Below are positions 7,310-32,103 of a stretch of DNA of 33,585 bases, piece by piece. Under the pieces are notes generated by a model. That model made no database searches, was not told the origin of the DNA, and saw only the letters and a list, made by a program, of their open reading frames with translations. Position 1 is the stretch's first letter; every line of letters starts with the position of its first letter. The stretch covers positions 1-33,585 of the forward strand of contig ONMJ01000006.1 in NCBI GenBank assembly GCA_900318955.1, written 5' to 3'. This DNA comes from an uncultured Bacteroidales bacterium. GTDB taxonomy: Bacteria; Bacteroidota; Bacteroidia; Bacteroidales; UBA932. The translations under genes were made by a program, and so were the position numbers.

Positions 7310-7591
7310 TTATTTGTTTTTATCTTTTCTTCCGCGGTCGATCCTGATCCATAGGCGGTACATCAGAAATCCCCATAGAATGAACAACAATATATGTGCC
7401 CAGAGGGGGACTTTCGTGAAAAAAGAAGGCTCGTACTTTTCGAAATCAGGGATATCTGCATAGTAATATGCTCCTGCACCGAAATCAAGTGAGTCTGAGA
7501 GACCGATACCTCTAATCATGATATAAAGCGCTGCCGCTGCCACCGCAATTGCGGTGACAGCAGTAACGACCTTATATATTTTATGATTCAT
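7310..7591 (-). CDS. Small two-TM membrane protein coupled to the YeiH-family transporter
   Basis: A 93-residue protein with an N-terminal hydrophobic helix (about 7-26), a loop with an acidic/tyrosine-rich segment (DFGAGAYYYADIPDFEKYEP), and a second helix (about 62-82) followed by a strongly basic tail (RIDRGRKDKNK). I do not recognise a family. The start is placed at 7591 because this ATG overlaps the stop of the upstream transporter gene as TAATG, the classic arrangement for translational coupling; a longer in-frame version would begin inside that gene. Coupling and membrane topology suggest an accessory subunit or partner of the transporter, which is inference. Confidence 0.7.
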   Translation of the reverse strand: MNHKIYKVVTAVTAIAVAAAALYIMIRGIGLSDSLDFGAGAYYYADIPDFEKYEPSFFTKVPLWAHILLFILWGFLMYRLWIRIDRGRKDKNK

Positions 7592-8931
7592 TATGAAAGT
7601 GTCGGGATAGGGAAGATCTTTCCTGAAAGAAGTAGCCAAACGGCGAAGAATGTAAGGATGATATTGAAAGTCTGACCGATAATGTAGAGCCAGAGGACCT
7701 TACCGCCTTCCATTTGCTTAACTATATCTTTGAATCGGGTGTCGAGTCCGATGCTGGTGAAAGCAAGGACGAAGCACCAGTTTTTGTACTGATCGAGAAC
7801 TTTGTTGATAGCACCTACCTGGTCGCCTCCGAAGATGGGCTGGATGATGAAGGATGCGATAAGGGAAGCAACGAAGAAACCGATGATGAATTTCGGGAAA
7901 CGGGTCCAAATCTCGCCGGCTCCGACTTTCTCGCCGCTGCCTTTATTGATATGGGTTGCGAAATAGATTGCGACGAAGAATGCGATGAAGCCGATAAGGA
8001 TGTTCTGGATCATCTTGACGAGGACGGCTGCCTTTTCGCCATCACCTCCGAGGACGGATCCTGCAACAGCAACTGCACCGGTACTGTCGACGGTACCTCC
8101 GATCAGCGCACCACCCATGATGGGGGACATTCCTACAGCCTTGATGATAATAGGCTCGAGAACCATCATAAGGACTGTGAAAATAATCGAAATGGAAACG
8201 ACCATGGTGAGGTCTGTCTTTTTGCAATTGGAGGCAGCGCCAGTGGCAATTGCTGCACTGGTACCGCAGACACTGGTTGCCGATGCCATGGTGATGACAA
8301 GCGGTTTATTGTCAATCTTGAGGACCTTTGTACCGAACCACCAAATGAAGAGAATGACTATCGGGGTGACAATCCATGCGATTCCAAGGCCATAGAGGCC
8401 GAATTTGGCGATATTCGAGAAGAGGACCGAGAAACCCATTATTACGAGACCGGTCTTGATATAGAATTCTGTCCTGACTGCGGGGCGGAGCCAGTCGGGT
8501 ACACCGACAGTGTTGGAAATGAGAAGACCGATAATGAGTGCGCAGAAAGCCCACTCTAGATAGCGGTTGAAGGTGTATTCGGCGCTTATCAGTCTTACGA
8601 GGAATGCAAGTGCGAAGAGCACGATGAATGCGGGGATAAATTTCTTTACCTTCTCTCCCTGGAGCTTGATTCCGAGAGTGAAAAGACCACCAAGGACAAT
8701 GATTGTAACAAGGGTCTTGCGCCAGAAAGCCCAGGTTGCGAATTGCTGCCCGAGAGGGACAATCTTGGCTGCAGCAGCCTCAGAGAGGTTTTCGCCCATT
8801 GCCCATGTGCTGAACTTGAGCGCCGAGAAGTCGAACCAGCCGGTCAAGACCGCGACAATTGCGATGATGATGACCGCAAATCCGATCCATACGGACAGCC
8901 AGTCTTCAGTTGAAAATAGTTTTGATTTCAT
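7591..8931 (-). CDS. YeiH/COG2855-family putative sulfate (sulfur oxyanion) exporter
   Basis: A 446-residue integral membrane protein with about ten to eleven hydrophobic helices, of the family often annotated 'YeiH family putative sulfate export transporter' (PF03601). Diagnostic blocks are SATSVCGTSAAIATGAA and GGALIGGTVDSTGAVAVAG, and the long N-terminal extension with an extra helix is common in Bacteroidota members. Relatives such as TauZ accompany sulfonate metabolism in other bacteria and are proposed to move sulfate or sulfite. Here it follows cysteate synthase by 6 bases, so it may handle the sulfite used or formed in this pathway. Direction and substrate are not experimentally settled for the family in general. 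Confidence 0.85.
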   Translation of the reverse strand: MKSKLFSTEDWLSVWIGFAVIIIAIVAVLTGWFDFSALKFSTWAMGENLSEAAAAKIVPLGQQFATWAFWRKTLVTIIVLGGLFTLGIKLQGEKVKKFIPAFIVLFALAFLVRLISAEYTFNRYLEWAFCALIIGLLISNTVGVPDWLRPAVRTEFYIKTGLVIMGFSVLFSNIAKFGLYGLGIAWIVTPIVILFIWWFGTKVLKIDNKPLVITMASATSVCGTSAAIATGAASNCKKTDLTMVVSISIIFTVLMMVLEPIIIKAVGMSPIMGGALIGGTVDSTGAVAVAGSVLGGDGEKAAVLVKMIQNILIGFIAFFVAIYFATHINKGSGEKVGAGEIWTRFPKFIIGFFVASLIASFIIQPIFGGDQVGAINKVLDQYKNWCFVLAFTSIGLDTRFKDIVKQMEGGKVLWLYIIGQTFNIILTFFAVWLLLSGKIFPIPTLS

Positions 8932-8937
8932 GTCGTA

Positions 8938-10218
8938 CTAGAAAAGTTTGTTTATTTTGTTGATAATTTCTTCTGCCGGGAGATCGGGGGAAAGGATGAG
9001 ATCAGGCTCTTTGAATATGAATCCCTTACTCATTGCGGCGAGGGTGCCTCCTCCGGTGCAGTTTAGCATAATGTACTCGTCTTTGCGGACTTTACCTTCT
9101 TCGATAGCTTTTGCAAGAGCCGTGACAGCGACGCATGCAGCGGGAAGGAGTTCATAACCTTCGAGATTGCGATACTGAATCATCCAGTACATGATGTCGT
9201 TGTTGTCAGCAAGGAAGGTGTCGCCGCCGCTTGCTTTCAGCACATCGTATAGACCACCGGCGAGACTGTATGGAGGTTTTCTGTTGGTAAGAACCTTTGC
9301 AAGAACTATTTCCGCCTCGTGCCGTCCCTGCTCCGGGGTGAGATCGACAAGGGCTCGTGAATCTGCCTTGAATGAATCGTGCATAAGGGTGAACGGCTTG
9401 TTCTGGGCGACATATACCCTCATGTGATTCTCTCCAAAACGGCCGTCAGCTGCCAGTCTTTCAGCATTTTCCCATGCTGCGATGGCTCCGGTACCGGACC
9501 CTACAGCCTGGAAATATGCATCGGGGATACGGCCTGTTGTTTCAGCAAAGCTCAGAACAGTTGTCCCCATTCCATCCCTTCTGGCAACGTTTTTCGCTCC
9601 GCCTTCCAGGAAATATCTGGGGTCCTGAGCGAGTTTCTCGCCAAGGGCGATGGCGTCATAGTAATCACATCCGTGGGGAACAGCAACAAGCTTTACGCAG
9701 CGGCGAAGTTTCTTCCTGAACCAGAGGTCATGAATGCTATCCAGAGGTACGCATATTACTACCGGGATGTTATTGTCAGAGCAGACCTGAGCAAAAGCAC
9801 GTGCAGTATTGCCGGCAGACTGGACAATCAATGTCCTTTTTTCGCTGCTGTCCATTCTTGCAAGGACACTGTAAGCCTCTGTTTCCTTGAAAGAGCAGGT
9901 CTTCATTTTCGCCCCGATCTTCGGATTCCATCCTGAGAAAGTGATATATAGATTCTCCAATCCGAGGAATTTAGCCAGCCCTTTTGACTTGTATGTAACT
10001 GGCGCTGAGGACTTTCTGAGAGTTCTCTTTATGGGCATCCAATTGGCATAGCGGTAGATTCCGTCCAGATGCTCACAAGGGTGGAACTCCTTATTTTCAT
10101 ATACGGCCCTAATGAGAGAAGGATCTCCGCCTTCAGGATCATTGAGGGTCCAGCCCTCATCTTCGAATACCCTTCCTATCTTTACGTTGACAAGGGAATA
10201 CTTTGTGGGTTTGAACAT
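8938..10218 (-). CDS. Cysteate synthase (PLP-dependent, threonine-synthase-like)
   Basis: A 426-residue fold-type II PLP enzyme resembling the cysteate synthase described in Methanosarcina, which converts O-phosphoserine and sulfite to L-cysteate. The PLP lysine is K111 in CSFKETEAY and the phosphate-binding loop includes SAGNTARAFA (134-143). The N-terminal part (FKPTKYSLVNVKIGRVFED and the following CEHLDGIYRYANW) is characteristic of cysteate synthases rather than threonine synthases. I chose the ATG at 10218, 4 bases after the SDR stop, over an upstream TTG at 10248. In Bacteroidota, L-cysteate is the head-group precursor of capnine and sulfonolipids, and the two flanking upstream genes fit the next steps. 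Phosphoserine versus another acceptor substrate is not determined. Confidence 0.85.
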   Translation of the reverse strand: MFKPTKYSLVNVKIGRVFEDEGWTLNDPEGGDPSLIRAVYENKEFHPCEHLDGIYRYANWMPIKRTLRKSSAPVTYKSKGLAKFLGLENLYITFSGWNPKIGAKMKTCSFKETEAYSVLARMDSSEKRTLIVQSAGNTARAFAQVCSDNNIPVVICVPLDSIHDLWFRKKLRRCVKLVAVPHGCDYYDAIALGEKLAQDPRYFLEGGAKNVARRDGMGTTVLSFAETTGRIPDAYFQAVGSGTGAIAAWENAERLAADGRFGENHMRVYVAQNKPFTLMHDSFKADSRALVDLTPEQGRHEAEIVLAKVLTNRKPPYSLAGGLYDVLKASGGDTFLADNNDIMYWMIQYRNLEGYELLPAACVAVTALAKAIEEGKVRKDEYIMLNCTGGGTLAAMSKGFIFKEPDLILSPDLPAEEIINKINKLF

Positions 10219-10222
10219 AGAT

Positions 10223-11005
10223 CTATACTGGTTTAATTGACCTTCCAATCCTTGCGCAGAGGCCGGGGAAGAAACGTTTTATATATACCATCACGAGCTC
10301 CTTTCCTCCGACAAGGACTTCGCGTCTGCCCCTCGAAATGGCTTTTACAATCTTTCTGGCGGCCTTTTCCGGTGAGATTCCTCCCGCCTGTCCGGGATCC
10401 ATTTTCCCATACTTTTCTCCGTTTTTGCCGATGGAGTTGATGGAAATATCGGTTCTGACCCTTCCGGGGCACACTATTGTAACCCTTATGCCTTTATCGT
10501 AGTACTCGGCTCTCAAGGTTTCATAGAATCCGTAGACGGCATGTTTTGAGGAACTGTAGGCGCACCTGAGCGGAAATCCGAAAAGGCCTGCGATCGAACT
10601 TGTCACGGCTATTCGTCCTCCGCCGGCTGCAACCATGCGGGGGAGTATGGCCTTTGTCATGGCTACAGGAGCGAAGTAATTGATCTCCATCAACTTGCGA
10701 ACGGTCTCCATAGACGTCTCTTCAACGGTTGTCCGTTGACTTACTCCGGCATTGCAAAAGAGAACGTCTATCTTCCCGAAAGTGTTCCATGCTTTTTCGG
10801 AAAGATTCTCAATACCGTCAGGGTTTTCGAGGTCGTAAGGGAGGATGCTGACCTGACCGGCGCCTTTTTCAAGACACCGTCTGGAGACTTCGGCAAGTTT
10901 ATTATCTGAACGGGATGTCAGGATAAGAGAAGCTCCTTTTTTCGCATATTCCAGCGCGCAAGCTTCTCCTATCCCGGAGGATGCCCCTGTAATCCAGACA
11001 ATCAT
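10223..11005 (-). CDS. SDR oxidoreductase, candidate 3-ketocapnine reductase
   Basis: A 260-residue classical short-chain dehydrogenase/reductase. Cofactor motif TGASSGIG (6-13), CNAG at 84-87, and catalytic Ser (S136/S137), Tyr150 and Lys154 (YSSSK) are all in place. It resembles the 3-ketodihydrosphingosine reductase/DHRS7-like branch, and the C terminus (VYIKRFFPGLCARIGRS) is basic and hydrophobic, consistent with membrane association. It starts one base after the AONS/SPT-like acyltransferase and ends 4 bases before cysteate synthase. In this context I infer reduction of the 3-keto long-chain sulfonate made by the acyltransferase, giving capnine. Sequence alone cannot exclude another ketone substrate. 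Confidence 0.82.
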   Translation of the reverse strand: MIVWITGASSGIGEACALEYAKKGASLILTSRSDNKLAEVSRRCLEKGAGQVSILPYDLENPDGIENLSEKAWNTFGKIDVLFCNAGVSQRTTVEETSMETVRKLMEINYFAPVAMTKAILPRMVAAGGGRIAVTSSIAGLFGFPLRCAYSSSKHAVYGFYETLRAEYYDKGIRVTIVCPGRVRTDISINSIGKNGEKYGKMDPGQAGGISPEKAARKIVKAISRGRREVLVGGKELVMVYIKRFFPGLCARIGRSIKPV

Positions 11006-11006
11006 T

Positions 11007-12269
11007 TTACTTAATCAGGGCCATATCAGGAATTTCCTTATCGTAATCGCCTCTTGCCAGACGCTCTTTGATGTCTTTGAAAGCAGCGAGAGTGCGGTCC
11101 ACATCTTCGATGCTATGGGCAGCGGTAGGGATAATCCTGAAAATTAACATTCCCGGAGGAATAACCGGATAAGTAACTATTGAACAGAAGATTCCATAAT
11201 TCTCACGGAGATCGACCGCGATATTGGAAGCCTGGTTGATGCCGCATCTGAGGTGGACGGGAGTGACGCAGGCCTCGGCCGGTCCGATCTCATATCCAAG
11301 TGAGCGGAAGCCTTCCTGGAGACGATGGGTGACCGTCCAAAGTTTCTCGCGGAGAGCATCTCCTTCTGCGCTTCTTATGATTTCCAGACGTTTGAGGCAG
11401 CCTTCGACAATGGGCATCGGAAGAGCCTTTGCATACATTTGCGAACGCATGTTGTAGCGTAGGTATGTGATAATATCCTTCTCGGAAGCGATGAATCCTC
11501 CGATAGTAGCCATTGATTTTGCATATGCGCCGATATAGAGGTCGATTCCGTCCATTACGCCGAAATGCTCAGATGTTCCCCGTCCGTGAGGGCCCATTAC
11601 TCCGAACCCGTGGGCATCGTCGATCAGGATTCTGAAATTGTATTTTTTCTTCAGGGCAACAATCTGGTCGAGGATTCCGAGTGCACCGGTCATTCCGAAG
11701 ACTCCTTCGGTGATGAGAAGGATGCCGCCACCAGTCTGCTCAACTTCTTCAGTAGCTTTCTTGAGCTTCTGTTCGCATGAGACTATATCATTGTGTTTGA
11801 ACTTATAAGTCGATCCCATATGAAGTCTTGCTCCATCTATGAGACATGCGTGGGCTTCAGCATCAATTACCAGGACATCATGGCGGCTCAGAAGAGCGTC
11901 AATAGCAGAGACTATACCCTGATAACCGAAGTTGAACTCGAACGCAGCTTCCTTGCACTCGAATTCGGCGAGTTCTTTCTCAAGTTTTTCATGAAGGGCC
12001 GTATGTCCGGTCAGCATTCTGCTTCCCATCGGATATGCCATACCCCACCTTGCTGCGGCTTCTGCATCTATCTTTCTGATTTCCGGGTGGTTTGCCAGTC
12101 CAAGATAGTTGTTCAGGCTCCAGCAGAGCACTTCTTTTCCGTTAAAACGCATGTGGGGGCCAAGTTCGCCTTCAAGCTTGGGAAAGGCAAAATAACCGTC
12201 CGCTTTCTCCCGGTATTGGCCGATAGGACCGCCGGTGGATTTTCTAATTTTGTCAAAAATGTCAGTCAT
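11007..12269 (-). CDS. AONS/SPT-family PLP acyltransferase, probable cysteate acyltransferase (3-ketocapnine synthase)
   Basis: A 420-residue alpha-oxoamine synthase with the full family signature: NNYLGLANHPE, the histidine that stacks on PLP (H140), DDAHGFGVMGPHGRG (217-231) and the PLP lysine K251 in GAYAKSMATIGGF. The closest type is serine palmitoyltransferase and the related cysteate fatty-acyltransferase (called SulA in Alistipes) that makes 3-ketocapnine, the first step of sulfonolipid synthesis. I prefer cysteate over serine as substrate because cysteate synthase is two genes downstream in the same run. It begins 5 bases after the VOC gene. The other AONS enzyme in this window (17593-18783) is a clear Kbl and differs around the active site. 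It is unrelated to the SOS protein also called SulA. Confidence 0.85.
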   Translation of the reverse strand: MTDIFDKIRKSTGGPIGQYREKADGYFAFPKLEGELGPHMRFNGKEVLCWSLNNYLGLANHPEIRKIDAEAAARWGMAYPMGSRMLTGHTALHEKLEKELAEFECKEAAFEFNFGYQGIVSAIDALLSRHDVLVIDAEAHACLIDGARLHMGSTYKFKHNDIVSCEQKLKKATEEVEQTGGGILLITEGVFGMTGALGILDQIVALKKKYNFRILIDDAHGFGVMGPHGRGTSEHFGVMDGIDLYIGAYAKSMATIGGFIASEKDIITYLRYNMRSQMYAKALPMPIVEGCLKRLEIIRSAEGDALREKLWTVTHRLQEGFRSLGYEIGPAEACVTPVHLRCGINQASNIAVDLRENYGIFCSIVTYPVIPPGMLIFRIIPTAAHSIEDVDRTLAAFKDIKERLARGDYDKEIPDMALIK

Positions 12270-12274
12270 TGTCT

Positions 12275-13345
12275 TTATTTGATTTTTTCTCTGGATACAA
12301 GTCCAATCATTCTGAATAGGAATTTCGGAAGAGACTTTTTCGGGTCACGCTTTTTCATGTCAAGGAACCATCCGAGTTTCTTGACAATAGGTATTTTATG
12401 GGTCTCTACGAACTCGATAAGCGTGCCGTCAGGATCCTCTATATATGTGAAATGTCCGGAAGCGTCGCCCATGTCAAATTCGATGTCCCCTGGGCAGCTG
12501 TCGACAGTGAAAGGATGGCCCTTTGAGGCGCAGAATTCCCCAAGCGCCTTCATTCCGCTGACATCGAAGCAAATCTGGATGAAGCCGGGGTCTCCCCAGT
12601 AACGCCCTTCATATATTTTTGCAGGAGTTCTGTCCAGCGCTTGGACGAGTTCAATGGTGCTATCTCCGAAGAGGCCGGCGAAAGCTCCATGTCTTGGTGA
12701 GGAGGTTCCTATAATGACTCTCCGATAATTCTGATCGCCTCCCGGGAGGAAATGAAGGTCATCGAAGGTGCCGCTCTTGTCTACGATAATATGGTCATAT
12801 CCAAGTATTTCCGAATAGAACTTTATCGAAGCTTCCATATCGGTAACCCCCACAAGAGCTCCATATATACCGCCGGTAATCGCTCCCTCGTCTATGAAAA
12901 TTTCCTTTACTTCGACAAGCTGGAAAGCATTTCCGTAAAGATCCTTGACATACATGCAGCGAGTCCCGTCGGGAAGAAGAGAAGGACGGCTACATTCCAG
13001 TTCTTTTGAATATTTATTGTAGTATGCATCGACATCGCGGCATCTTACTTTTGCGGCGAAAACTCCGAGGTCACCGACACTGATCTCAAATGGACATGGT
13101 ACAGGCTTTCTTTCAGAATACTGCCATACTTCGAACCCGCCTCCGCCTTGAAGGGAAACGGTAATGCAGGCATGTCTTTTCTGAGGTTTGCCTCCTGTGT
13201 ATGGGAGCATACGTTCCGCGACAGTATCATCCTCAAGGATTTTGACGTCAGCGCCAAAGTATTTGATAACCCAGTTAAACGTCGATCTGAAAGACTCAGT
13301 GCCGACTCCTACTTGCTGAATGCCTGAGATATTGAATTTACTCAT
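12275..13345 (-). CDS. Tandem-VOC (glyoxalase/HPPD-like) protein at the head of the sulfonolipid operon
   Basis: A 356-residue soluble protein with four VOC half-modules, i.e. two VOC domains: about 6-70 (GIQQVGVG to FEVWQY), 75-150 (to GNAFQLVEV), 155-240 (GALVGVTDMEASIKFY to STIELVQ) and 250-335 (to DPDGTLIEFVET). The glutamates ending several modules, usual metal ligands, remain. The His expected in the first strand of modules 1 and 4 appears to be Gln (IQQVGV and FIQICFDV), as in some glyoxalase I enzymes. A basic tail with repeated Lys/Arg (KKRDPKKSLPK) could touch membranes. It is the first gene of the operon, just behind a perfect promoter box. Possible roles are a metal-dependent hydroxylase or lyase on the lipid, or a binding protein; none is proved. 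Confidence 0.75.
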   Translation of the reverse strand: MSKFNISGIQQVGVGTESFRSTFNWVIKYFGADVKILEDDTVAERMLPYTGGKPQKRHACITVSLQGGGGFEVWQYSERKPVPCPFEISVGDLGVFAAKVRCRDVDAYYNKYSKELECSRPSLLPDGTRCMYVKDLYGNAFQLVEVKEIFIDEGAITGGIYGALVGVTDMEASIKFYSEILGYDHIIVDKSGTFDDLHFLPGGDQNYRRVIIGTSSPRHGAFAGLFGDSTIELVQALDRTPAKIYEGRYWGDPGFIQICFDVSGMKALGEFCASKGHPFTVDSCPGDIEFDMGDASGHFTYIEDPDGTLIEFVETHKIPIVKKLGWFLDMKKRDPKKSLPKFLFRMIGLVSREKIK

Positions 13346-13370
13346 TAATCTTATGGTCTATAATATTATA

Positions 13371-13378
13371 CAAATTTA
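13371..13378 (-). promoter_or_regulatory. -7 promoter box for the eight-gene sulfonolipid run
   Basis: Reverse strand TAAATTTG, a perfect TAnnTTTG match, 26 bases before the VOC start codon. No equally good promoter box was seen between the genes down to 5847, consistent with one long transcript. Confidence 0.6.
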
Positions 13379-13499
13379 TTAATTTTTCTTTAAAGTCCAT
13401 ATAAAATCTTTAACGGAAACAACATTCTGAACTTAATTATTGGGTACGGATTTTGAAGGAATTAATAAACACTAAATAACCATATAACTTATCACAAAA

Positions 13500-13928
13500 G
13501 TGAAAAAGGCGATTAAATCGACTATTTATTACATCCTGCTGGGCGCTGGACTAGTTCTCATGATTTTTGCTGGATGGAAGTTTGCGGATCTGAAAAATTC
13601 AGAGAAGGCTATTGAACACGAAGTGGAAGAAGCCCCTGTCGAAGATCTCTCCTTTATGGATGACCTTGAGGGAAATTATTCTTTCTCACTTAAAGCGGGA
13701 GAAGAGGTGTCGTATTCGACAGCTGTCGTGAAATTAATCGCAACTCACATGTATCAGGTCACAAGGATGACGGTCTACGGTCCCATGCACTACAGCTTCG
13801 AAGTAACCGGAGGCAAGAGTCTCTACTCTGAAGAGATGGGTGAGGGAACAGCGTCTTACAAGCCTGAATTGGATAAGACAATGTTGCATTTTGAGAAGGA
13901 GAACGTAGTATGCGAATTATCAAAATAA
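13500..13928 (+). CDS. Hypothetical membrane-anchored protein (GTG start)
   Basis: A 142-residue protein with one N-terminal membrane helix (about 9-27, IYYILLGAGLVLMIFAGW) followed by an acidic linker and a C-terminal domain of about 90 residues predicted to be beta-rich and extracytoplasmic. I do not recognise a family. The only possible start is the GTG at 13500, since an in-frame stop lies 15 bases upstream; GTG starts are infrequent in this window. The last 19 bases overlap the next gene, a coiled-coil lipoprotein, so the two are probably co-translated and may work together in the envelope. No perfect TAnnTTTG box was found upstream. Confidence 0.7.
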   Translation: MKKAIKSTIYYILLGAGLVLMIFAGWKFADLKNSEKAIEHEVEEAPVEDLSFMDDLEGNYSFSLKAGEEVSYSTAVVKLIATHMYQVTRMTVYGPMHYSFEVTGGKSLYSEEMGEGTASYKPELDKTMLHFEKENVVCELSK

Positions 13929-14683
13929 CCTTATCGGCGCTTATCATTGCCGGTTTGACCTCATGTGCTGAGAATCATGAGGGGTATGTTCCTGAATCAG
14001 ATTATCAGGAAATCGTTAAAGAGTATAAGGAGCTTAAGGCAAATTCTGATGCTACCCGTGAGCAGTTTATCGAGGAAGCGGAAGCAATGGACAGCATTCT
14101 TCAGGAGCTCTCAGGTATATCAGGAAAGACTTCTGCTCTGAGAAGTAACATAGAGCAGGGAACTGCCCGGATCACCCAGGCCGAGCAAATTGAAGAAAAC
14201 ATCAAAGATATTAAGAAACGGCTTTCCGATCTCGATAAACTCTCCAGCGAGAACGCTTCTTATAAAAGACTTGTGAAGAGTCTCAGGGAGGTGATTGCAG
14301 AGAAAGAGAACGAGATTGAGTCCCTTAAATCCGCGATAGCTTCCCGTGACCGGAAGATTTCCGAACAGAATGAGACTATAAATGCCCAGCATGGGACAAT
14401 CCAGAGTCAGTCTGAGACTATTTCTTCTCAGCAGGAAGAACTTAGGATAGCTGTTCAGGAGCAGGCTAAACTGCTATATCAGGCTGGTGTGGACTTCGAA
14501 GAACTGGGAGACTCTTCGCCATCCGTTTCATTCCGTCGAAACAAAGAAAAGCTGAAGGGTCTGACGCGTGAGATGTACGAAAAGTCCATTGTATATTATT
14601 CTAAGGCTCTTGAAACCGGTTATCCTGAGGCCGAATACAGAATCTCCGCAGTCCGCGAGAAGATCAGCATGCTATCTGAATAA
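13910..14683 (+). CDS. Coiled-coil lipoprotein of unknown function
   Basis: A 257-residue lipoprotein: signal MRIIKITLSALIIAGLTSC with lipobox LTSC (C19). Residues about 30-185 are almost entirely charged heptads with repeated Glu/Lys/Leu (LREVIAEKENEIESLKSAI and neighbours), a long coiled coil. The C-terminal 70 residues form a short helical domain with ALETGYPEAEYRISAVREKI, reminiscent of a single TPR/Sel1-like helix pair. Such proteins span the periplasm or brace envelope complexes, but no specific function is known to me. It overlaps the preceding membrane protein by 19 bases and is followed by a strong terminator, so the pair forms its own transcription unit. Confidence 0.75.
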   Translation: MRIIKITLSALIIAGLTSCAENHEGYVPESDYQEIVKEYKELKANSDATREQFIEEAEAMDSILQELSGISGKTSALRSNIEQGTARITQAEQIEENIKDIKKRLSDLDKLSSENASYKRLVKSLREVIAEKENEIESLKSAIASRDRKISEQNETINAQHGTIQSQSETISSQQEELRIAVQEQAKLLYQAGVDFEELGDSSPSVSFRRNKEKLKGLTREMYEKSIVYYSKALETGYPEAEYRISAVREKISMLSE

Positions 14684-28412: not shown

Positions 28413-29696
28413 TCAATTCTTGGAAAGAATTTTCTGGCTCTGCTCTTTTATCTTGTCAAGGGCTTTTCTCAGCGGTTTGTCGCTACGGAGACGGAAATAT
28501 GCAATCAGATGCTTCCAGTCATTGATATACTCATAGAACACTGTCGGTGCGGCTAAAGAGCCGACGATCATCAGCGGACATACCCACCACGGAAGGAAGA
28601 AAAGCGATACAAGAGAAAGGATTATCTGAATCGGAACATTGATAATATAAAGGGCTACGTGCCGGATAGAATTGATAAAGGTCTTGTCTTTAAGTTTCGG
28701 CTTAATTATCCCGATTAAGATTAGCGCGGGGATTAGGAGAATAGAGAAAAGAGCGACCAGGGGGAAAATGAGAACAAGGATGGCGGCTTTCCCAATTCCT
28801 TCCAGTGGAGTTCGTTTCGAAGTCGAAGCTTTGAGACTGATTCCGCGCTGCTCTCTTTTCTTTGCAATCTTTTCCGCCCACTCTATAAGTTCGGGATTTC
28901 GTTTTATCATCATCGAAGCAGCGTGCTGCATCCACCTCATCCTGCCATACAGAGAGTTTACCTTATGGTCGGAATAGCCGAGATTCATCAGCTCCCATAG
29001 ACCAGTATATCTTTCGTCATCCGGGAGATAAATGATAGTATCTTTCATCCTCTCTTCGAGAGTCAGGAGTATCTTGTGATATATTTCATTCTCGGTTTCA
29101 CCCTTATGCTCCGATAGGAAATCCTGGAGTTTAATGGGCTCGGCAATATTTACTAGAAGAGTCGAACGGTATTCGAAATAATCTCCATACTCCAGTCCGA
29201 TTGGCACGATATAGACCGGCATCTTGTCCCCGGCCCTGTCGATAACACCCATTGCAATGCGTGCAATGCCCTTTTTCAGTGGGAGAAGACTGTGTTTTGG
29301 ACGATGGGCACCTTCAGGAAGAATGCAGAAAGGGACACCGTCACAAATGGCGGAGATACTTTCCTCAATAGTGTCTCCGTTGTTCAGAAGAGCTTCTTTT
29401 CCGTCACGAATCCTGCTGATTGGCAGAATCTTTATGAAGCGGAGAAACTTTGCAAGCCTTGGCTTTTTGAAGATATCAGCGCGGGCAACAAAGACTTTTG
29501 GATCATTATTGATAGAAAGGACGGCAAGAGCGTCCATCAGAGTGTTGCAATGGTTTGGAGCAAGAATAATTGCTCCGTCGGTCGGGAAATTTGAAAGGCC
29601 GCGATACTCGAGCTTGTTGAAAGCCCAGTGAAAGGTCATGTTTTCGTAGCGGAGTAAAAACTCGTAGAGTCTGTCTCTGTCTTGAATCCTAGCCAT
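28413..29696 (-). CDS. PlsC-family lysophospholipid/glycerol-phosphate acyltransferase with C-terminal membrane helices
   Basis: A 427-residue acyltransferase. The catalytic histidine motif is PNHCNTLMDALAVL, the NHxNxxxD variant (five residues between His and Asp instead of four) typical of one bacterial branch of the LPLAT superfamily. The second motif region is ILPEGAHRPKHSLLPLKKG (PEG). After the enzyme domain, residues about 300-395 contain two to three membrane helices (VLIFPLVALFSILLIPAL and the next ones). Such proteins transfer acyl groups to glycerol phosphate or lyso-lipids at the inner membrane. It is the last gene of the lipid operon and overlaps the SDR gene by 8 bases. The acceptor is not determined. 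Confidence 0.85.
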   Translation of the reverse strand: MARIQDRDRLYEFLLRYENMTFHWAFNKLEYRGLSNFPTDGAIILAPNHCNTLMDALAVLSINNDPKVFVARADIFKKPRLAKFLRFIKILPISRIRDGKEALLNNGDTIEESISAICDGVPFCILPEGAHRPKHSLLPLKKGIARIAMGVIDRAGDKMPVYIVPIGLEYGDYFEYRSTLLVNIAEPIKLQDFLSEHKGETENEIYHKILLTLEERMKDTIIYLPDDERYTGLWELMNLGYSDHKVNSLYGRMRWMQHAASMMIKRNPELIEWAEKIAKKREQRGISLKASTSKRTPLEGIGKAAILVLIFPLVALFSILLIPALILIGIIKPKLKDKTFINSIRHVALYIINVPIQIILSLVSLFFLPWWVCPLMIVGSLAAPTVFYEYINDWKHLIAYFRLRSDKPLRKALDKIKEQSQKILSKN

Positions 29697-30504
29697 TGTA
29701 GAGTTTCTTTAGAATTGGAAGTTTCCATCCTTCGGGAAGAATGCGTACGATAAAACCGACAGCCTTATAGTCGAGGCGTGGAATAACCCTGACTTTCATT
29801 TTGGAACGCTGCAATTGCCTAAGGATTGCCTTTCCTATTACCAAAGGCTCCATTCCGGTAGTCTCATCCTTTTCAATCTTGGCGAGATTGTGCTTCATTT
29901 CTTCTTTGTACGGGCAGTCTTCTTCCTGGGAATATGCCGTAAACTTTCTTGCGGCAGTGAATCCTGTCTTGACATCACCTGGAAGAACACTGCAGCACTG
30001 AATTCCCGTCCCCTTAAGCTCCATAGAGAGACTCTCGGAAAGAGAAAGCATTGCGGCTTTTACGGAAGAGTAGAAGCCCTGGAAGGGGAGTTGCAGTATA
30101 GCCATTACGGAAGTCACCGTAATAATCCTTCCAAAACCTTGTTTCCTGAATATCGGCAGGCAGGCTTCGATACACTTTAAAGCGCCGAAATAGCAAGTTT
30201 CGAACTGGAAGCGGGCTTCTTCCTCAGTTGTGCCCTCGACGGGGCCGTAGATGCCGTTCCCCGCGTTGCAAACAAGAGCATCGAGGTGGCCTTCATTTTT
30301 AAGAACCGTCTCGACAGCGTCTTTTACAGAAAGGGCGTCATTGACATCGAGTCGTATAGGTATGATCCCATCTGCAGGATCTCCTGCGGTCCCTCGTCTG
30401 GAACCGGAATAGACTTTCATCCCGTTTTCGGCGAGAAGCTTCGCCGTAGCGGCCCCGATGCCGCTGCTCCCGCCTGTCAGGAGCACAACTTTTACTTTAT
30501 TCAT
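29689..30504 (-). CDS. SDR oxidoreductase in the lipid operon
   Basis: A 271-residue classical short-chain dehydrogenase: TGGSSGIG (10-17), CNAGNGIYG, catalytic SVMAILQLPFQGFYSSVKAA with Tyr and Lys in YSSVK. The Arg-containing SGSRRG stretch after the second strand points to NADP(H). It lies between two acyltransferase genes with 4-base (ATGA) and 8-base overlaps, so it very likely acts on an acyl or acyl-glycerol ketone, for example reduction of a 3-keto or dihydroxyacetone-linked group; this is inference from position. It is not closely similar to the SDR of the sulfonolipid run in substrate loop or C terminus. Confidence 0.85.
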   Translation of the reverse strand: MNKVKVVLLTGGSSGIGAATAKLLAENGMKVYSGSRRGTAGDPADGIIPIRLDVNDALSVKDAVETVLKNEGHLDALVCNAGNGIYGPVEGTTEEEARFQFETCYFGALKCIEACLPIFRKQGFGRIITVTSVMAILQLPFQGFYSSVKAAMLSLSESLSMELKGTGIQCCSVLPGDVKTGFTAARKFTAYSQEEDCPYKEEMKHNLAKIEKDETTGMEPLVIGKAILRQLQRSKMKVRVIPRLDYKAVGFIVRILPEGWKLPILKKLYNG

Positions 30505-31367
30505 AAATCAAGTTCGCTTCTTGGTATGAACGATTCTGGAACAGGCATATCATAGACCTTCGAACGAAGGAATGCCTTGAATTCCTGAAGGTCAGTATAT
30601 TGTTTCTGCTCTTCAACGCTGATAACCTCGCCAATGCCAACTCTTACGGGTTTGCCTTTCTTGTTAGTAATCTCATGACAGAGTCTGAGAAGACGTACTC
30701 TGAAATCTATCAGGCCAAGAATATAATAGAATAATGAATTGCGATCGAAAAAGCGGACTGGAACAATAGGGACTCCAGCCTTCATTATCAGCTTGATTGC
30801 TGCGTCTTGCCACTCCCTGTCGCGGATAATCCATCCTTCGCGCGGTTTAAGGTCCGAGACGGCTCCTGCAGGGAAGAGACATAATGGTTCTCCGTTTCTG
30901 ACTGTCATAAGGGCGTGTTTCACCCCGTTGATAGACTCCGAAGTAGCTGCTTTGTGCTCATCTCCTGTCGGATCCACAGAGATGAAAGAAGGAGCAAGGC
31001 AGCGTATAAGCATCAGAAGCTTGTTGACCATGACCTTTAATCCTGGTCTCTTATGGCCTATCATATCGACCAGAACAATACCGTCAATATGGCCGTATGC
31101 ATGATTGCTGATGGTAATGAATGCACCTTCGGGAAGGTGTTCAAGTCGCTCCGGATGACCGACGAGGTAGTCTATCCCTACATAGTCAAGAATACCTTTA
31201 GCCGCGTCCGGCCCGAATTCAATGCCTGCATCTTCGACACTCTGGTGGATTCTATTGATTTTATCAACACCTGCGAACCGCATTAGACCTTTTAAAAAAG
31301 CGTTCCCCACTTTTCCGCGGAAAAGCGGGGATAATTTCTCAAGGTCTTTGACGGTAATTACTCCCAT
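30501..31367 (-). CDS. OlsA/GlsA-like lysophospholipid O-acyltransferase (hemolysin-like)
   Basis: A 288-residue LPLAT protein of the group once called putative hemolysins. The catalytic motif is SNHAYGHIDGIVLVD, corresponding to NHPFGGIDG in relatives, and FPAGAVSDLKPREGWIIRDREW is the typical second block. In Bacteroides a similar enzyme (GlsA) adds the O-linked acyl chain in glycine lipids together with an N-acyltransferase GlsB, which is not in this window. It starts immediately after the CDP-alcohol phosphotransferase stop and overlaps the SDR gene by four bases. Whether it makes glycine/ornithine-type lipids or acylates a lyso-phospholipid is open. Confidence 0.83.
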   Translation of the reverse strand: MGVITVKDLEKLSPLFRGKVGNAFLKGLMRFAGVDKINRIHQSVEDAGIEFGPDAAKGILDYVGIDYLVGHPERLEHLPEGAFITISNHAYGHIDGIVLVDMIGHKRPGLKVMVNKLLMLIRCLAPSFISVDPTGDEHKAATSESINGVKHALMTVRNGEPLCLFPAGAVSDLKPREGWIIRDREWQDAAIKLIMKAGVPIVPVRFFDRNSLFYYILGLIDFRVRLLRLCHEITNKKGKPVRVGIGEVISVEEQKQYTDLQEFKAFLRSKVYDMPVPESFIPRSELDL

Positions 31368-32072
31368 TTATTCATCTTTTTTGAGCGGATCAATCTTGGC
31401 AAAATACCTGGCATCCTTGATAACACTCACGAAGAACATCATGAAAATGATGAGGCCTATTGCAAGTCCGATGAAGTCGAATATCCCAAGTCGCATTGTT
31501 GTCCCTAGCAGGGTCACCTCGGTGAAAATCTCGCTCAAAGGTTTGATGAATATGAATAGAGTATTGACGATTACGACGATTATCCTGAACTCGGTTGGTC
31601 CCAAACCTGCATAAGTAAGCTTGAACTCATTTTTGAGGTGGGCTGCTATATAGACATATACGGACAAGAGAAGATATGTCACAAGCACAAAGAGGGAGGT
31701 TGTGATATTCAAAAGCGGGGAAAGACCTACTCCTATGAACATAATAGTCTCATTCAGGCAGTCTACTGTATGGTCCAGGAAGAAACCGTACAATGGCCTT
31801 TGCTTATTGCGCACTCTAGCAAGCGAACCATCCAAAGAATCTCCATACCAGTTTACGAGAAAACCGAACGAGGCAAGCCAAAGCCAATTGAGATTATAAT
31901 TCGAAAGAGCGTAGCCGACAGCAATGATAATGGCCCCAAGGGTGCCGACGAAAGTAAGCATATCGGAAGTCACCCATTTGGGCATTTTCCCGGCGAGATA
32001 GACCAATAGCTTTCTTTCTGGTCCGTTTAATATTGATGTCAATATTCTTTGAGACTGTTTCCTTTCTTCCAT
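31368..32072 (-). CDS. CDP-alcohol phosphatidyltransferase family protein
   Basis: A 234-residue membrane protein with about six helices and the CDP-alcohol phosphotransferase signature: DSLDGSLARVR followed by GFFLDHTVD (DxxDGxxAR...GxxxDxxxD, all four Asp present), coordinating two metal ions. It joins a CDP-activated lipid to an alcohol, or CDP-alcohol to a lipid, in phospholipid synthesis. I use the ATG at 32072; a TTG one codon upstream is less likely. It is the first gene of a four-gene run with two acyltransferases and an SDR, with zero or negative spacing throughout, so the operon likely builds one lipid class. The alcohol substrate cannot be read from the sequence. Confidence 0.87.
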   Translation of the reverse strand: MEERKQSQRILTSILNGPERKLLVYLAGKMPKWVTSDMLTFVGTLGAIIIAVGYALSNYNLNWLWLASFGFLVNWYGDSLDGSLARVRNKQRPLYGFFLDHTVDCLNETIMFIGVGLSPLLNITTSLFVLVTYLLLSVYVYIAAHLKNEFKLTYAGLGPTEFRIIVVIVNTLFIFIKPLSEIFTEVTLLGTTMRLGIFDFIGLAIGLIIFMMFFVSVIKDARYFAKIDPLKKDE

Positions 32073-32103
32073 CAAATATAGTGTTTTAGTAACTTGTATG
32101 ACG

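Follow-up and report, generated by a model that had tools for sequence, protein, structure and literature searches.

A predicted capnine operon in an uncultured Bacteroidales bacterium with a proposed sulfite module and a two-domain VOC protein

Contig ONMJ01000006.1 of an uncultured Bacteroidales bacterium (assembly GCA_900318955.1), analysed here over positions 1 to 33,585 (the window, 33,585 nucleotides long), carries six minus-strand genes at 13345-7310 that encode, in order, a protein of the vicinal oxygen chelate (VOC) superfamily, a cysteate acyltransferase, a short-chain dehydrogenase/reductase (SDR), a cysteate synthase, a transporter of family PF03601 and a small two-helix protein (Table 1). 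To judge by these products, the locus is very probably a sulfonolipid (capnine) operon. A fuller reading, to which a probability of roughly 0.57 is given, is that of a self-contained capnine operon bearing a module for the supply or homeostasis of sulfite, with the VOC protein acting next to the ketoreductase. The initial annotation had the acyltransferase, SDR and cysteate synthase genes following one another at gaps of 1 and 4 bases, and this is how they lie, with all genes on the minus strand at the coordinates of Table 1. The remaining junctions, likewise read from the sequence, measure 5 bases (VOC-acyltransferase) and 6 bases (cysteate synthase-transporter), while the transporter stop and the ATG of the small protein share base 7591, a 1-base overlap. 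The 4-base gap ahead of the cysteate synthase assumes the ATG at 10218; the TTG start at 10248 carried in the open reading frame list would overlap the SDR.

Table 1. Features of the predicted capnine operon, with positions in the window.
Feature	Position	Strand	Basis or remark
VOC/glyoxalase-superfamily protein with two domains (356 aa), encoded by the operon's first gene	12275..13345	-	PF00903
Codon for VOC residue 257, predicted metal ligand	12575..12577	-	Position computed from ORF start
Cysteate acyltransferase SulA/CapB/CFAT, 420 aa, predicted product 3-ketocapnine	11007..12269	-	Bit scores, residues, tree
Codon for Lys281, the residue separating SulA from serine palmitoyltransferase	11427..11429	-	Position computed from ORF start
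SDR, candidate 3-ketocapnine reductase, 260 aa	10223..11005	-	TGASSGIG and YSSSK; adjoins VOC or CFAT in relatives
Archaeal-type cysteate synthase (O-phosphoserine + sulfite -> cysteate)	8938..10218, ATG at 10218	-	TIGR03844; 9k3c
PF03601 (YeiH-like) membrane transporter, 446 aa	7591..8931	-	PF03601
Small protein, 93 aa, two hydrophobic segments	7310..7591	-	ATG overlaps transporter stop
Intergenic region, likely site of the operon promoter	13346..13499		Faces divergent gene pair 13500-14683; promoter match not above chance

Conservation of the cluster, the check proposed with the initial annotation, was followed across Bacteroidia and Bacteroidales loci. The gene order recurs in relatives and is therefore not the product of chance, the exact order VOC-CFAT-SDR-cysteate synthase-PF03601-small protein being found in 5 of 80 named loci and the same genes in other arrangements in more (counts over the named loci use L102-L181 only, L022-L026 being the same records as L167, L160, L128, L111 and L119). 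The claim that the genes stand behind one promoter box fared less well: a box-like match does exist (TTTAAA-18-TATAAT at 13394-13365), but the scan returned 7 promoter-like sites against 8.2 expected by shuffling, and the Bacteroidetes-type -33/-7 promoter pattern was sought upstream of the operon and not found.

The acyltransferase, assigned to PF00155 in Pfam, aligns with the solved cysteate acyltransferases 7u7h and 28eh at 560 and 546 bits, against 218 for the best serine palmitoyltransferase (SPT; 3a2b, 8guh). SulA is described as set apart from SPT by Lys281 (PMC9304779), and the window protein bears this residue along with Lys251, the pyridoxal 5'-phosphate (PLP) lysine, as does SulA. 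Both lysines are present in all 123 CFAT-like rows above 450 bits, 106 of them distinct. A separate SPT of the genome, located at G000:C42 (L003:1465-2655), has Ala281 and scores 662 bits to NF047600, over the cut-off of 640. That the acyltransferase is itself an SPT and the operon one for sphingolipids might be entertained from the superfamily that the two enzymes share and from the first NCBIfam match of the window protein, an SPT model reached at 285 bits, far under its cut-off of 640; this identity was rejected on Lys281, the bit scores, the tree, the cysteate synthase next door and the separate SPT in the genome, and is extremely improbable. In the tree, the protein groups with 47 other CFAT-like proteins and apart from five paralogs, the genome's own SPT included. 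The grouping with SPTs that had been named beforehand as decisive against a capnine/sulfonolipid reading thus did not appear, and that reading of the core enzymes is borne out by the bit scores, Lys251/Lys281, the tree and a cysteate synthase that exceeds its cut-off. Since an SPT is encoded separately, the genome probably specifies both the sphingolipid and the sulfonolipid classes.

The nearest of the 80 named loci by acyltransferase is that of Candidatus Cryptobacteroides choladohippi (L105), at 90% identity, which makes an origin of the window in this group of gut bacteria probable. The tree further joins the window acyltransferase to homologs from other families (f74, then f150, f77 and f90) and sets it apart from 8 same-genus acyltransferases that lack a VOC gene beside them, a mixing for which operon transfer and an uneven genus are both possible explanations. 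In the genus sample, CFAT is found in 27 of 41 genomes (E <1e-100) and the VOC protein in 13 of 41; among 25 CFAT regions fetched from these 27 genomes besides the window (G015 was left out), VOC stands beside CFAT in 5.

The cysteate synthase scores 411.9 bits to the equivalog model TIGR03844 (cut-off 324.9), and the solved cysteate synthase 9k3c matches it at 467 bits; the archaeal type of this enzyme is stated for Alistipes and Odoribacter in a review (PMC10191378). The SDR reaches 226.6 bits to NF004825, over the cut-off of 215, and 184 bits to PF00106. Its translation holds TGASSGIG and YSSSK, the SDR motifs being TGxxxGxG and YxxxK. In Alistipes finegoldii and Chryseobacterium gleum, the reductases that have been verified are described as lying apart from cfat and cys (PMC11211663), a point against the overall reading; reductases being unclustered there and an SDR clustered here, the latter is a positional candidate for the reductase in the lineage of the window, and may be regarded as a candidate 3-ketocapnine reductase. 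A divergent threonine-synthase-like PLP enzyme was also observed at three other loci (L105:11346-12560, L062:3425-4714 and L064:9939-11195), with 127, 133 and 121 bits to TIGR03844, all under the cut-off of 324.9. Each lies within or close to a sulfonolipid operon that shows no cysteate synthase of the usual kind, in L105 between CFAT and SDR, and is possibly another kind of cysteate synthase.

Descriptions of the capnine pathway name CapA, CapB and CapC in Capnocytophaga and Ornithobacterium, and SulA in Alistipes finegoldii (PMC11211663, PMC10191378). With these systems the window shares a cysteate synthase, an acyltransferase bearing Lys251/Lys281 and a candidate ketocapnine reductase of the SDR family; unlike them, it has all three in one operon, encodes an archaeal-type cysteate synthase and adds a VOC protein, a PF03601 transporter and a small membrane protein. 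Gene content, gene order, conservation and diagnostic residues can be read directly from the sequence, and from them we infer the following reactions for this organism. The cysteate synthase would form cysteate from O-phosphoserine and sulfite, the SulA-type transferase would join cysteate with an acyl thioester to give 3-ketocapnine, and the SDR would convert the latter to capnine, the base of sulfonolipids. The PF03601 transporter and the small protein would move sulfite across the inner membrane, both supplying the cysteate synthase and bounding free sulfite. In many relatives, a heterodisulfide reductase (Hdr)-like cluster of the same operon, usually set between SDR and cysteate synthase, would make sulfite. 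The argument for a sulfite module is an indirect one: both of the gene sets found beside the cysteate synthase are linked to sulfite elsewhere, and the cysteate synthase consumes sulfite.

The transporter belongs to PF03601 by a wide score (159.1 bits, cut-off 24.5) and is the only match to this family in the window genome. The small protein accompanies it closely and is probably its partner: 12 of the 18 named loci that have PF03601 also have the small protein, whereas all 62 loci that lack the one lack the other. We take the YeiH proteins of Salmonella and Hyphomicrobium to be members of the same family. YeiH is reported as the main sulfite-resistance factor in Salmonella (PMC12880088), and in Hyphomicrobium, where an sHdr-like complex releases sulfite, YeiH is held to export it (PMC12423496). 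The window transporter resembles these proteins in family and in its sulfite-linked setting; unlike them, it lies far under the cut-off of the YeiH subfamily (TIGR00698, 76.5 against 232.6 bits), sits behind a cysteate synthase and has no regulator among the neighbouring proteins scanned. 

On balance, a link of this transporter to sulfite is somewhat favoured. Uptake would be the more economical direction, because the sulfate-assimilation and sulfite-reductase families tested are missing from the genome: in this genome (98.9% complete), neither the 3'-phosphoadenosine-5'-phosphosulfate (PAPS) reductase family PF01507 (controls 14/14 positive) nor the sulfite-reductase family PF01077 (controls 11/14 positive) was found, and no hdrDE beyond a 29-bit match. 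Several points weigh against sulfite import. The subfamily cut-off is missed, so that neither substrate nor direction can be transferred from YeiH; the YeiH proteins studied serve resistance or export, not import; and the search for a sulfite source covered the Hdr cluster and PF01507, with organosulfonate breakdown, for instance, outside its range. Import rather than export is rated at somewhat under half the likelihood of the sulfite link itself. A safety valve, by which sulfite (or sulfate) unused by the cysteate synthase is exported, is a credible rival that nonetheless falls short of even odds: it agrees with the protection that YeiH affords Salmonella against sulfite and the export ascribed to it in Hyphomicrobium, with the lack of PF01077 in the window genome and with five loci that carry both PF03601 and the Hdr cluster, the pairing to be expected if a sulfite producer had its own export valve, whereas a genome with neither Hdr cluster nor PF01507 has no sulfite source among those tested and so less to export, and PF03601 lies behind the cysteate synthase in 0 of the 7 Hdr loci where 1.4 kb or more of sequence is available there. 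Movement of a sulfonate (cysteate, sulfolactate or another) in place of sulfite is unlikely; the transporter does directly follow the cysteate synthase and stands outside the YeiH subfamily by its cut-off, but cysteate is both made and used by the neighbouring genes, and the Hdr-like cluster that shares these operons suggests inorganic sulfur.

This Hdr-like cluster is a five-gene set of hdrC, hdrB, hdrA, hdrC2 and hdrDE for what would be an electron-transfer complex. Of the 80 named loci, 32 contain it, and in 28 it separates SDR from cysteate synthase. It resembles sHdr in bringing HdrA-, HdrB- and HdrC-like subunits together and is tied, in the relatives, to a sulfite-using step; unlike sHdr, the relatives have hdrC-hdrB-hdrA (337 aa)-hdrC2 with a membrane/DsrMK-like fusion, and the window genome is without the cluster. 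By analogy with sHdr in sulfur oxidisers, we infer that it may make sulfite from reduced sulfur. In the order sample, hdrDE occurs in 76 of 247 genomes, and CFAT accompanies it in 72 of these 76 as opposed to 103 of the 171 without hdrDE (p 3e-9); here and below, co-occurrence tests ignore shared descent and use carrier lists compiled by hand, with totals (256, 119, 175, 82 and 76) that agree. The cluster lies directly beside the cysteate synthase in L183 and L184, where CFAT lies elsewhere, near CFAT in L195, L081 and L196 (adjacent or within 1.4 kb) and also in L064 and L066; VOC is its neighbour, or one gene away, in L064, L066, L193, L194 and L196. Hdr and CFAT lie no more than 15 kb apart in 5 or more of the 72 co-carriers (0.6 expected), Hdr and VOC in 5 or more of 35 (0.3 expected), all 15-kb counts being lower bounds and their expectations assuming 3.5-Mb genomes. 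Another order of the Hdr genes (hdrC hdrC2 hdrDE hdrB hdrA) was seen in L134, L064 and L066, still beside VOC and near CFAT. Against a sulfite-producing role for the cluster in this pathway stand 14 of the 23 Hdr loci examined (20 newly fetched and 3 earlier), in which the available stretch holds no CFAT, cysteate synthase or VOC, and the scores of the Hdr proteins, which fall under every curated Hdr cut-off matched, in a gene set that differs from sHdr.

Whether PF03601 and the Hdr cluster replace each other was approached from the 43 named loci with at least 450 bases behind the cysteate synthase, of which 24 have Hdr only, 11 PF03601 only, 5 both and 3 neither. This raw count (p 1.7e-4) is biased, since for most Hdr loci the sequence runs out within 0.8 kb past the cysteate synthase. 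When confined to loci with at least 1.4 kb behind that gene (18 named loci together with L183 and L184), PF03601 is found within 1 kb in 0 of 7 Hdr loci and in 11 of 13 others (p 5e-4). Two further comparisons weaken the pattern: PF03601 starts within 450 bases of the cysteate synthase in 5 of the 29 loci with Hdr and in 5 of the 14 that lack it (p 0.25), and the addition of the five short loci that have both brings the proportions to 5 of 12 and 11 of 13 (p 0.04). The nearest named relatives by acyltransferase, L105 (90%) and L103 (89%), carry the Hdr cluster and show no PF03601 over the sequence available for them, and PF03601 is present in L140 and L152 (86%). Mutual replacement of PF03601 and Hdr is suggested by these data and not established. 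The joint proposal of a sulfite supply in two interchangeable forms in the sulfonolipid operons of gut Bacteroidales, the PF03601 importer or a quinone-linked Hdr-like complex that turns reduced sulfur into sulfite anaerobically, combined with a VOC capnine enzyme whose metal site has changed from His to Gln, is a tentative one and on present evidence rather unlikely to hold in every part.

The initial annotation had set the VOC protein and the transporter outside the described core steps and called the extra genes unexplained; outside those steps they remain, and conservation now ties both to the pathway. For the VOC protein, the tie is to SDR and CFAT. Across the Bacteroidia sample, VOC occurs in 119 of 295 genomes and CFAT in 256, with CFAT in 115 of the 119 VOC genomes and 141 of the 176 others (Fisher 1.7e-5); in the order sample the corresponding figures are 75 of 82 and 100 of 165 (p 1.3e-7). 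Among 20 class loci chosen for their VOC gene, not at random, from the 119 genomes, 13 have an SDR gene directly upstream of VOC and on its strand. Among the 80 named loci, some of which end early, 70 have an SDR of the window kind (at least 250 bits; once on the other strand), 50 have CFAT, 46 the cysteate synthase, 18 PF03601 and 12 the small protein. The window aside, at least 8 of the 74 genomes of the order that carry both genes have VOC no more than 15 kb from CFAT, where about 0.6 would be expected. The idea that the extra genes are passengers was rejected on the SDR adjacency, the CFAT co-occurrence and the recurring neighbourhoods.

Taken together, these associations make it likely that the VOC protein is an enzyme of the sulfonolipid pathway. 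Two observations run counter to this, namely the 7 of 20 class loci with no SDR adjacent to VOC and the lack of VOC in 141 of the 256 CFAT genomes of the class sample and 100 of the 175 of the order sample, a majority in both, from which it follows that VOC is not required for capnine as such. There is perhaps one chance in several, no better, that the VOC-SDR pair serves some other lipid or metabolite and is in the operon for co-regulation only; VOC-SDR pairs do occur away from CFAT (L082-L101), and 18 of the 80 named loci (including L113, L127, L133, L138, L142 and L146) show VOC and SDR with no other gene sought, in stretches that in part end early, but nearly all VOC genomes also have CFAT, and VOC, SDR and CFAT come together in several gene orders across separate families.

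Neither Pfam (27 members scanned) nor NCBIfam (4 scanned) names the family of the VOC protein more closely than its superfamily. PF00903 is matched by the window protein at 31.9 bits, over the gathering score of 20.6, and by 27 of 27 aligned members at E 0.001; the only NCBIfam match, glyoxalase I (TIGR00068), reaches 25 of the 120 bits required. No match for the VOC protein or the transporter was found in PDB sequence searches, and a profile built on the VOC alignment gave weak PDB matches only (best E 8.6e-6). The residues Q11, E72, E232 and E311 are invariant in 107 of 107 distinct homologs with at least 320 aligned residues, and position 257 divides them, with Gln in all 84 close homologs and His in all 23 that are more distant. 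In HMMER alignments of the homolog L083, Q11 falls opposite a His of glyoxalase 6bu2 (E 0.0013, weak), and in glyoxalase I 1f9z (E 0.59, by itself not significant) the residues facing His257 and Glu311 are His74 and a C-terminal Glu, positions that we take to be metal ligands. The metal site of glyoxalase I is formed by Q/H, E, H/Q and E, and the simplest reading suggested by these residues is a site of the glyoxalase I/epimerase kind that spans both VOC halves.

The window protein is thus like glyoxalase I and methylmalonyl-CoA epimerase in having VOC domains by profile and residues at the likely metal-ligand positions; unlike them, it is a 356-residue chain with two VOC domains that lies under all matched NCBIfam subfamily cut-offs, and the His-to-Gln change at its putative metal site is specific to the operon clade. 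It would be a metal-dependent non-oxygenase of the glyoxalase I/epimerase kind acting next to the ketoreductase, where it would most likely move the proton beside the ketone of 3-ketocapnine as a C2 epimerase or isomerase, a specific assignment that is possible and still unlikely. An oxygenase or hydroxylase of the HPPD (4-hydroxyphenylpyruvate dioxygenase) or extradiol type that modifies the base or the acyl chain was also considered, two VOC domains in a single chain being a feature of extradiol dioxygenases and HPPD as well. Those enzymes have a 2-His-1-Glu triad in the C-terminal domain, and both were rejected on alignment; the putative C-terminal ligand positions of the VOC protein (G162, E232, Q/H257 and E311) offer a single His/Gln rather than two His and one Glu, glyoxalase I is its only NCBIfam match, and its named close relatives are largely gut metagenome-assembled genomes, probably of anaerobes, all of which leaves an oxygenase improbable.

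Elsewhere in the window, at 28413-32075 on the minus strand, an acyltransferase (PF01553), an SDR, a second acyltransferase (PF19576) and a CDP-alcohol phosphatidyltransferase are consecutive, a lipid cluster that could belong to amino-lipid or sphingolipid synthesis.

In the open-licence literature, no paper containing both 'heterodisulfide reductase' and 'sulfonolipid' was found, the word 'sulfite' was not found in the portions available of the open-licence sulfonolipid papers checked for it, and none of the matches listed is, by title or start of abstract, on VOC, YeiH or Hdr in sulfonolipid synthesis, a negative limited by PMC11719660, in which sulfonolipid, glyoxalase and VOC family all occur. 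Sulfonolipids made by gut bacteria reportedly influence inflammation in the host (PMC11211663). The sulfite module, if true, would make it testable where sulfonolipid producers obtain the sulfite for cysteate; it would also offer a genetic handle on sulfonolipid output and suggest a role for the Hdr-like cluster of 76 of the 247 sampled genomes of the order. The VOC family, carried by 119 of the 295 sampled Bacteroidia, would, if the reading proposed here is true, become a defined lipid enzyme.

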